NCBI GenBank assembly: GCA_002686465.1
Contig: NZCP01000040.1
Span: 1-43,318 of the forward strand
Direction: 5' to 3'
Length of the DNA: 43,318 nucleotides
Origin: Candidatus Woesebacteria bacterium
GTDB taxonomy: Bacteria; Patescibacteriota; Microgenomatia; UBA8517; UBA10165
The translations under genes and the position numbers were made by a program. Positions 19,828 to 22,290 of this stretch are shown here, piece by piece. Below the pieces are notes generated by a model. The model ran no database searches. It had not been told where the DNA came from and saw only the letters and a program-made list of their open reading frames with translations. How positions within the stretch are numbered: the first letter of the stretch is position 1; the number at the start of each line of letters is the position of its first letter.

Positions 19828-20343
19828 ATGGAAAGGACTCCTAGAAGGTTTACTCGGGATGAGAAAAAAATAGAGAGACTTAGGGAATGTGCAACGAAGG
19901 AATTGGCTCGCTTCTCCAATGGCCTAGGGTTGCCATCGATCTTCTCGGGATGTTTACCGAATTCAATGGTTGAGAAGTTAGGGGATTCACCTCCAACCGA
20001 GCGTGCCGAGGGAAATATAAAATTTATCGCAGACGTTTGGACTTGTTCGCCGGCCTTGAGAACCCTTTTCATGCGAACAAGAAAGCCAGTAATTCTTGAT
20101 GACATTGGGTGCTTTAGGTTCGTTGTGCGTCGCGACATGTATGATATTTGCTATCGTGAACCTAGTCGAAACGGAGATTTGGCTACGCCATATCGTTCTG
20201 CACCCACTTTGTTTGGAGAGTTATGGGGAGCTGAAGATGATAAAATACTTGAGAATATTGCGGGTCTTTCTAAGAAAAGAATACTTCTTGGTTTTAACAG
20301 AATCCTTCGAGATAAAGCCGTCCTTTCAAGGCAACCCCTTTAG
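19828..20343 (+). CDS. Protein of unknown function
   Basis: 171 residues, soluble, with no signal peptide. Visible stretches: a basic, helical N terminus (RFTRDEKKIERLRECATKEL), a middle part with scattered Cys, and RFVVRRDMYDICYREPSRNG in a probable beta-strand region. No family recognised. Its last 18 bp overlap the end of the convergent SGNH gene, so the transcripts would overlap. The start is supported by TATAAT at 19813-19818. Confidence 0.55.
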   Translation: MERTPRRFTRDEKKIERLRECATKELARFSNGLGLPSIFSGCLPNSMVEKLGDSPPTERAEGNIKFIADVWTCSPALRTLFMRTRKPVILDDIGCFRFVVRRDMYDICYREPSRNGDLATPYRSAPTLFGELWGAEDDKILENIAGLSKKRILLGFNRILRDKAVLSRQPL

Positions 20344-21447
20344 TATCTCCTCTGTTAAATAATCTGCCACCCTTTTTGTTCCCACTGGGGTTAGATGAAA
20401 ATCCCAAAGATAGTAGCAGTCGAGACACCCGTCTTTTCTAAATTCATCTAAAAGCGAGAAATAGGCAAAGCCGTTTTTTTCTGCAACTTCTCTAAGATCC
20501 GGATCTGGGTTGAAGTCAAGCAGTCTGTTGCTTACCTGAAAACCGAGACCTTTTCTATAAGAGTGAAATTCTTCCGAGACCAAATCATTTGAAGGCAAGA
20601 AAACAATGTAAACAGGAAGGTCTTTACTGCAAGAGCTTTTTAGTCTTTCCAGTTTTTTGTCTACCACGTTGACAGCTTTTCTAAACGTTGTCTCGTCAAG
20701 CATCGAAATTAAAAAGTTGGGATTTTGTGTGCTGTAGGAAATTATGTCTGGGTTCAGCTTTCCTTCTAAATACATTTTGCGTGCTTCGGGGGCAAGTGAG
20801 TTAATATAATCTTGATTAAATGCAGCAAAGCTTTGAGCTCTCGGCTTCCAATAACTTGAAGTTTCAATAACTGCCCCTGGTTTTGCACCAGACGGTTGGA
20901 TAAAGCGATTTTTAATCCGGGATAATGTTGGCCAGAAGGTACCGACTATGCGATGCTCATTTGACGTCCCTTGCTCTCTGATTAATACTTGGTTAAGATC
21001 ATCAGTTGAGTAGAACCCTAAGATTATTGCGTCGATCTCTAGTTGGTCAGCATACGCTTGACATACCAAAATTTCGCTTTCTAAATCTAGACCAGGTGCT
21101 CCTGCATTAATTACCTCTACAGTTTTCCCTTTTGAACGTAGATTTTTTTCTAATAACTTTGGCCAGGAATCGGAAAGATCAACACCCCAGCCAAAAACGA
21201 ATGAGTCTCCAAATGCCAAAATACGGTAGGTATCAGAGGGTTTTGGTATTACTACTTCTCCATTCCGCAAACCTTGTGAGGAGGTAAGTATCTTGATAGT
21301 GAATTCACCAGTTGCCATTGTCTCTGTGATATGGGGAACTATTGTCTTGAAATAACCGATTTGGTTTAAGTAAGAGCCGAGAAATCTATCGAGTACGATC
21401 GAAGATGTAAAGACAATTAAAGATGAGACGAGTACTAGAATTGCCAA
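20326..21447 (-). CDS. Membrane-anchored SGNH/GDSL hydrolase
   Basis: 373 residues. A membrane helix (MAILVLVSSLIVFTSSIVL) is followed by an exported SGNH domain: block I FGDSFVFGWGV (nucleophile Ser), the region AGAPGLDLESEILV, and WDFHLTPVGTKRVADYL carrying the catalytic Asp and His. The family acts as esterase or acyltransferase-like hydrolase, often on acetylated glycans. The first possible start is TTG at 21447; no ATG or GTG lies further upstream in frame before a stop, though the open frame continues back into the RNA gene at 21460-21613. No SD or close -10 is seen, so expression may come from read-through of that RNA. Confidence 0.75.
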   Translation of the reverse strand: MAILVLVSSLIVFTSSIVLDRFLGSYLNQIGYFKTIVPHITETMATGEFTIKILTSSQGLRNGEVVIPKPSDTYRILAFGDSFVFGWGVDLSDSWPKLLEKNLRSKGKTVEVINAGAPGLDLESEILVCQAYADQLEIDAIILGFYSTDDLNQVLIREQGTSNEHRIVGTFWPTLSRIKNRFIQPSGAKPGAVIETSSYWKPRAQSFAAFNQDYINSLAPEARKMYLEGKLNPDIISYSTQNPNFLISMLDETTFRKAVNVVDKKLERLKSSCSKDLPVYIVFLPSNDLVSEEFHSYRKGLGFQVSNRLLDFNPDPDLREVAEKNGFAYFSLLDEFRKDGCLDCYYLWDFHLTPVGTKRVADYLTEEILKGLP

Positions 21448-21459
21448 TGGAAGTTGTGT

Positions 21460-21613
21460 AAAAATGCCCCACCTTCTGGGATTGTCCAGAGATGTTTCCC
21501 CTGGTTTTCACCAGGTGGGTGGGCTGTCCCAAACCCCAAAGGGTTAGGGAACTCCGCCTTCCCGTAAGTAAAATGATAGGGGAAATATTCCCTGGTATCC
21601 TTTCCGGTAGGGC
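21460..21613 (-). ncRNA. Structured RNA of about 154 nt, 6S-like
   Basis: The RNA begins GCCCUACCGG exactly at the predicted +1 of a strong promoter (21620-21648) and ends GGUGGGGC A UUUUU. The ends pair (GCCCUACC with GGUGGGGC). Inward, GGAU pairs with AUCC, CCAGGGA with UCUCUGG, and UUUCCCC with GGGGAAA, giving a long rod. Above the rod are a 14-nt A/U-rich unpaired strand (UAUCAUUUUACUUA), an apical hairpin region, and on the 3' side a CCUGGU-GAAA-ACCAGG hairpin. This layout (closing stem, bubble with 3'-side hairpin, apical stem) is that of 6S RNA, the RNA polymerase regulator. The RNA gene is well supported; the 6S identity is an inference. Confidence 0.6.
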
Positions 21614-21619
21614 AACTTC

Positions 21620-21648
21620 AATATAGCAAAAAAGTGGGTTTTGGTCAA
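21620..21648 (-). promoter_or_regulatory. Strong promoter of the structured RNA
   Basis: Minus strand: TTGACC at 21643-21648, 17-bp spacer, TATATT at 21620-21625. Predicted +1 at 21613, where the closing stem of the RNA starts. Confidence 0.75.
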
Positions 21649-21651
21649 TCT

Positions 21652-22290
21652 CTAAAGGATGGGTGAGGTGGGGAGAAGCGTGCTTAATATGATGTTTAAT
21701 ACGGGTCTAATAATGCTAAAGATTATTGATGTTCCTCCAAAGATTGGGAAGATTAGAAATAGAAGGATGATAAATCCATATTGGCTCAAAATTTTATCCC
21801 AACTGTGTGCGATGTCTTCTGGGAGAAGAGCAATTAGAATTTTTCCTCCATCAAGAGGGTGTATTGGGATTAAGTTAAAGATTGCCAAGATGATATTGAT
21901 ATATATAAAGGGAACTAGGAGTACCGCAAGGGTTGGGAGGACCTGAAAAACATCCAAACCTCTTACTATGAGAGCAAGGGCGGTTGCGAGTATTAAATTA
22001 GACAAAGGTCCGGCAAAGGCAATTTTAGCTGCGTCTCGTCTTGGGTTTTCAAGATTATAGGGATCGAACCGAACGGGTTTTGCCCACCCAAAAAGAATTG
22101 GTGCGCCGCTTATGATTAAGAATGCGGGTACAAGGATTGTGCCGATGATGTCTATATGGGCTATTGGATTTAGGCTAAAGCGTCCCTGAACCCTTGGGGT
22201 AGGGTCACCGAGTCTGTCTGCTGCCCAGGCGTGAGAAAATTCATGAATTACGATTGCAACTAAGAAAGCAAGTGCTAGTATCAGTATCAT
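21652..22290 (-). CDS. Site-2 protease family (M50) membrane metalloprotease
   Basis: 212 residues, almost all membrane helices. FLVAIVIHEFSHAWAADRLG contains the zinc motif HEFSH, GWAKPVRFDPYN is the conserved loop, and NLIPIHPLDGGKILIALLPE supplies the third zinc ligand (NxxPxxPLDGG). These proteases cut transmembrane segments of regulators such as anti-sigma factors. The length is typical of the small prokaryotic form. It is divergent from rpmB across a dyad-symmetric promoter region (22301-22334). Confidence 0.92.
   Translation of the reverse strand: MILILALAFLVAIVIHEFSHAWAADRLGDPTPRVQGRFSLNPIAHIDIIGTILVPAFLIISGAPILFGWAKPVRFDPYNLENPRRDAAKIAFAGPLSNLILATALALIVRGLDVFQVLPTLAVLLVPFIYINIILAIFNLIPIHPLDGGKILIALLPEDIAHSWDKILSQYGFIILLFLIFPIFGGTSIIFSIIRPVLNIILSTLLPTSPIL

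Follow-up and report, generated by a model that had tools for sequence, protein, structure and literature searches.

The window analysed here is a stretch of 43,318 nucleotides. On its minus strand, between the genes for a peptidase and an SGNH/GDSL-like protein, an RNA of about 150 nt is encoded at 21613–21460. A promoter sequence lies in front of it, and the RNA has a stem closing its ends, a bubble in the centre, a GAAA-loop hairpin on the 3′ side and a terminal U-run. The features of the locus, in the order of the minus strand, are as follows.

21652–22290, minus strand: gene for an M50 (site-2-type) peptidase, the upstream neighbour and a conserved synteny marker (Pfam PF02163, 70.5 bits; same order in loci L031–L047)
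21643–21648, minus strand: −35 hexamer TTGACC, 17 bp from the −10, as in relatives L113, L114 and L127
21620–21625, minus strand: −10 hexamer TATATT with TGC in front of it, an extended −10
21460–21613, minus strand: very probable 6S RNA gene, matched by RF00013 at 21616–21462 and by the CPR models R1, R2 and R3 at about 21615–21460
21460–21465, minus strand: AUUUUU 3′ of the closing stem, a likely terminator or transcript end (a U-rich stretch is found here in many relatives)
20326–21447, minus strand: gene for an SGNH/GDSL-like protein, the downstream neighbour, outside the RNA (PF13472, 32.6 bits, just under the cut-off)

The TTGACC-17-TATATT promoter reported in the first-pass annotation can be read directly at 21648–21643 and 21625–21620, and six bases separate the −10 from G21613, the first base of GCCCUACC. 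The ends of the RNA had been said to pair ahead of a U-run, and indeed GCCCUACC (21613–21606) is complementary to GGUGGGGC (21473–21466), after which AUUUUU follows (21465–21460). With both a promoter and a U-run present at the gene, a transcript of its own is predicted, 148 nt long up to the end of the closing stem and 154 nt with the U-run. The concern that the stretch might be conserved only as coding sequence for the N-terminus of the SGNH protein was not borne out: the SGNH frame is interrupted inside the RNA by stop codons, of which TGA at 21510–21508 is the nearest, and the SGNH ORF begins at 21447.

The spacing of the promoter elements varies among the relatives. In 19 of the 29 examined members of the order (L115–L140, L043), a TTGA[C/T] element lies 6–8 bp, and not 17 bp, upstream of the −10, which is then usually of the extended type (TGnTAnAAT). 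In six of the 29, the window included, the spacing is 16–17 bp, and in relatives of the class outside the order it is mostly about 17–19 bp. Because a weak TTTTCA often occupies the normal −35 place in the relatives from the order, the near TTGA[C/T] element may be a spacer motif or a regulator site.

Since a DNA similarity search in the order gave fragments only, synteny was used, and relatives were gathered via the adjacent M50 peptidase gene. The best-ranked loci obtained in this way were mostly from Microgenomates, the closest ones belonging to a Microgenomates bacterium and to Candidatus Blackburnbacteria, which probably places the host near these two. The same RNA, with promoter-like sequence before it, was found directly past the stop codon of the peptidase gene in ten other Microgenomates loci. 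With a covariance model (R1) built on the RNA of the window and those of three relatives, the RNA was detected in 46 of the 57 genomes of the order, nearly always at one place in each; in most of the exceptions, the second place is the mirror image on the opposite strand. In many relatives, the RNA is followed by tRNA genes and not by an SGNH gene. Ahead of an extended −10 (TGATATAAT), those tRNA genes (L031, L032, L041, L043) often carry AGCTTC/GCTTC, which may be a promoter element specific to the lineage. In another CPR lineage (L158, L161, L164, L169, L175), the 6S candidate is located about 0.9–1 kb from the RNase P RNA gene.

The fold of 21648–21460 has a predicted energy of −73.7 kcal/mol, compared with a mean of −55.5 for shuffled sequences (z = −4.27), and none of 200 shuffles was as low. 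The elements of the fold, from the 5′ end of the RNA and with the paired strands side by side, are as follows.

21606–21613, minus strand: closing stem, 5′ strand GCCCUACC, pairing with 21466–21473 (folding, consensus, covariation)
21466–21473, minus strand: closing stem, 3′ strand GGUGGGGC (folding, consensus, covariation)
21589–21595, minus strand: inner helix of the lower stem, 5′ strand CCAGGGA (folding; L031 and L040 have a helix here too, made of other pairs)
21486–21492, minus strand: inner helix of the lower stem, 3′ strand UCUCUGG (folding, relatives)
21564–21585, minus strand: UUUCC helix strand and 5′ arm of the central bubble (CCUAUCAUUUUACUUAC), the presumed pRNA template (consensus, folding)
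21561–21563, minus strand: invariant GGG opening the apical stem, pairing with CCC at 21519–21517 (consensus, covariation)
21517–21560, minus strand: apical stem-loop, interrupted by internal loops, that runs to the invariant ACCCACCU motif and matches the RF00013 consensus GGGA...CACCCACCUgg
21500–21515, minus strand: hairpin CCUGGU-GAAA-ACCAGG on the 3′ side of the central bubble (consensus, covariation, folding)

The stacked helices described earlier, CCAGGGA/UCUCUGG and UUUCCCC/GGGGAAA, are both present, and UUUCCY is nearly invariant across the order. The GAAA hairpin is likewise found, and it also forms in the multi-species consensus. The proposed unpaired bubble holds with one qualification: its 5′ arm is open in the multi-species consensus but closed in the minimum-energy fold of the window RNA itself, where UUUUACU pairs with GGUGAAA, and a fold that keeps the bubble open and forms the 3′ hairpin lies 3.8 kcal/mol higher (−68.9 vs −72.7). 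The consensus of 27 sequences aligned by sequence alone has a rod with a closing stem, a large central bubble and an apical stem containing small internal loops, with the bubble open and a hairpin on its 3′ side, as in the Firmicutes/LAB type.

Covariation was assessed in this alignment of 27 sequences (A6); another alignment (A2) was left out of the models, its inner lower stem being misplaced. The consensus fold of A6 comprises a closing stem of 10 bp, an apical base of 7 bp and a 3′-side hairpin of 5 bp. In total, 93.4% of the cells are paired, compared with 38–54% when the partner is slid by 1–3 columns, and the covariation score was reached by none of 500 shuffles; the shuffles do not take out the relatedness of the sequences, but it is retained in the slid controls. 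Changes on both sides were found in 13 of the 22 pairs; compensatory changes affect both the closing stem and the apical stem. Such changes had been expected in the lower stem of related spacers, and 7 of the 10 closing-stem pairs do vary on both sides in the sequence-only alignment. Among 52 sequences from the whole phylum, all ten closing-stem pairs vary on both sides, in an alignment made with the model and thus biased towards it.

A covariance search with the Rfam 6S model, as proposed in the first-pass annotation, gave a match on the correct strand that runs end to end (RF00013, model positions 1–187; 42.0 bits; E-value, 3.4 × 10−7 in 501 bases), albeit under the gathering score of 46.4 bits, and consequently default annotation misses the RNA. 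In line with the remark that it would be easy to miss, a default Rfam scan of the window lists only four tRNAs. The gathering threshold is a cut-off set by curators and reflects no biological feature, so membership in the 6S family was not rejected on the score. At permissive settings, RF00013 is the best match to the stretch, the next ones being at chance level, and GGGA ... CACCCACCUGG, where the consensus is strongest, is common to the model and the stretch. At the gathering threshold, the Rfam scan found no other RNA family at the 6S stretch. When the relatives were searched with RF00013, independently of the models built in this analysis, the match coincided in coordinates and strand at eleven loci (L034, L032, L043; L120, L121, L128; L168, L175, L163, L161, L170), with 26–43.5 bits and nearly always at full length. 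A search of the bacterium's whole genome with RF00013 and 6S-Flavo returned no match, although the direct scan of the stretch finds RF00013; the fast prefilter of the genome-wide RF00013 search misses the window copy, and the phylum-wide RF00013 counts given below share this limit and are lower bounds.

As the rod is nearly palindromic, the reverse complement (21464–21619, plus strand) also scores with R1 and with R2. These scores are far lower than those on the minus strand (45 vs 158 bits for R1, 19.8 vs 109.5 bits for R2), and the strand is therefore settled. Automated searches could nevertheless name the wrong strand of a near-palindromic 6S gene.

In the reverse direction, model R2, for which sequences of this order alone were used, was applied to 25 genomes that had been taken for their M50 gene and whose names are all non-CPR; its best match there is a 6S RNA (RF00013, 76.3 bits). 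On twelve accepted 6S loci, R2 points to the right spot and strand in nine, mostly weakly (E < 0.02 in two only), and 263 kb of non-CPR flanking DNA, used as a control, gave one match (E-value, 0.31). Homology to accepted 6S RNAs of other phyla is indicated by the CPR-built models in this direction too, most of the matches being weak.

The survey of the phylum covered 287 sampled CPR genomes. RF00013 matches at least 22 of them, and at least three over the threshold (55–60 bits), whereas the CPR-trained model R3 finds a candidate in 71; the two models name the same place in 13 of the 22 genomes with an RF00013 match. Since three CPR genomes already pass the threshold, the Rfam model was able to recognize 6S RNA in CPR before; the new point is that the majority of CPR copies, that of the window included, score below it. 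It seems fairly likely that 6S RNA is widespread in CPR as an RNA of about 135–190 nt, usually single-copy and mostly missed by Rfam, that a switch shutting off RNA polymerase has been kept despite genome reduction, that a dedicated CPR model would expose the RNA, and that most promoters in the order have TTGAC 7–8 bp upstream of the −10 in place of 17 bp.

According to the literature, 6S RNA mimics an open promoter, sequesters the holoenzyme of the primary sigma factor and templates short pRNAs, and the unwinding of helix P2 by the pRNA releases 6S (PMC8876501, PMC11077062). The bubble arm, the adjoining UUUCC/GGAAA helix and the 3′-side hairpin are all present in the window RNA, and the genome encodes RpoD (TIGR02393, 386.8 bits, over the cut-off). 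For this RNA, transcription, holoenzyme binding, pRNA synthesis and release are predicted steps. The rod with its open central bubble would imitate melted promoter DNA, and the RNA would occupy the active site of RpoD holoenzyme, keeping it off DNA promoters when nucleotides are low. Once nucleotides are back, the polymerase would copy the 5′ arm of the bubble into a short pRNA (predicted start at 21575, GAUAGGGGAAA...), which would unwind the adjoining UUUCC/GGAAA helix, favour the 3′-side CCUGGU/ACCAGG hairpin and set the polymerase free. The product expected is the following.

21575–21588, plus strand: predicted pRNA GAUAGGGGAAAUAU, for which the RNA itself is the template

Starting opposite the C at 21575, this pRNA would follow published rules: GG at positions 5/6, AA at 9/10 and, on the template, an A adjacent to the start. 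These features are given for the 6S RNAs of lactic acid bacteria and for reference 6S RNAs (PMC8414754). Applied to the relatives, the rule predicts starts resembling RRUNAGGAAA, in which GG falls at positions 5–7 depending on the start chosen, against GG near positions 4–6 in the criterion applied.

A 6S-shaped RNA could have another partner, either core polymerase without sigma, as Ms1 of Actinobacteria has, or a second sigma factor. The genome does encode a second, smaller protein of the sigma-70 family (289 aa; L177, G000 contig 5), which reaches the cut-off of none of the specific sigma equivalogs listed. This alternative is improbable, given that the GGGA...CACCCACCU core matches the RF00013 consensus, that the pRNA-type template arm is conserved and that the Rfam scan gave no other RNA family at the gathering threshold. 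Still less probable is a cis-acting leader or attenuator of the SGNH gene. It would suit the position and strand of the RNA, with the SGNH ORF starting at 21447, just past the U-run and 12 nt downstream, but the RNA precedes tRNA genes in many relatives and comes after the M50 gene, and the U-run after a strong stem suggests the end of a transcript. A chance inverted repeat or mobile-element remnant devoid of RNA function is hardly credible, for although rod-like inverted repeats are common and R1 matches the reverse strand weakly, this reading is already contradicted by covariation, as well as by the nearly always single place per genome in the order and the promoter-like sequence in relatives.

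6S RNA is said to occur in almost all bacteria. The stretch is read here as the single-copy 6S RNA (ssrS) gene of a Microgenomates (CPR) bacterium, with a probability of about 93%. The first-pass assignment to the 6S type is upheld by the full-length RF00013 match, the covariation of the lower stem, and the open 5′ bubble arm and 3′ hairpin of the consensus; the analysis shows the gene together with its fold, conservation and homology to 6S RNA. Counting against this reading are the length of about 150 nt (usually about 180), the score under the gathering threshold, the closed bubble in the minimum-energy fold of the RNA itself and the weak matches of the CPR models to most accepted 6S RNAs. 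In the literature searched, no paper joins 6S RNA with the Candidate Phyla Radiation, Microgenomates or Saccharibacteria; the broad 6S surveys (Wehner 2014, Barrick 2005) lie beyond that search and may list CPR copies. The main use of the finding is that it reveals a systematic under-annotation of 6S RNA in CPR bacteria. It also offers a concrete annotation target, a handle by synteny and covariance, and a predicted pRNA to seek in metatranscriptomes. If 6S RNA is indeed widespread in CPR, these tiny and mostly host-dependent cells have kept an RNA-polymerase shut-off switch despite genome reduction, which bears on the management of dormancy in reduced episymbionts.

Among known systems, 6S-Flavo (RF01685) is comparable in being a 6S RNA of one lineage for which Rfam has a separate model. 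It was rejected as the identity of this RNA, as RF01685 had no match in the bacterium's own genome at E ≤ 10 (a loose search that also missed RF00013) and none in the direct scan of the stretch. Ms1 of Actinobacteria is likewise a 6S-like rod that associates with RNA polymerase (PMC9130861, PMC11077062); it binds the core enzyme, whereas only 6S is convincingly matched among the Rfam families here. The gene neighbourhood differs from those of known 6S genes, with an M50 peptidase and often tRNAs in place of zapA/fau in E. coli and of rarA/uspA in lactic acid bacteria (PMC8414754). The window RNA is also shorter than 6S/SsrS (about 150 vs 180–190 nt) and scores under the gathering threshold of that family. 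On the other hand, it shares with 6S/SsrS (RF00013; E. coli ssrS, B. subtilis 6S-1) an alignment over the full model, a closing stem, central bubble and apical stem, the GGGA...CACCCACCU core, and, as predicted from sequence, the organization as a single small RNA gene with a sigma-70-type promoter, and it has the 3′-bubble hairpin of B. subtilis 6S-1 and of the 6S RNAs of lactic acid bacteria (PMC8876501, PMC8414754).
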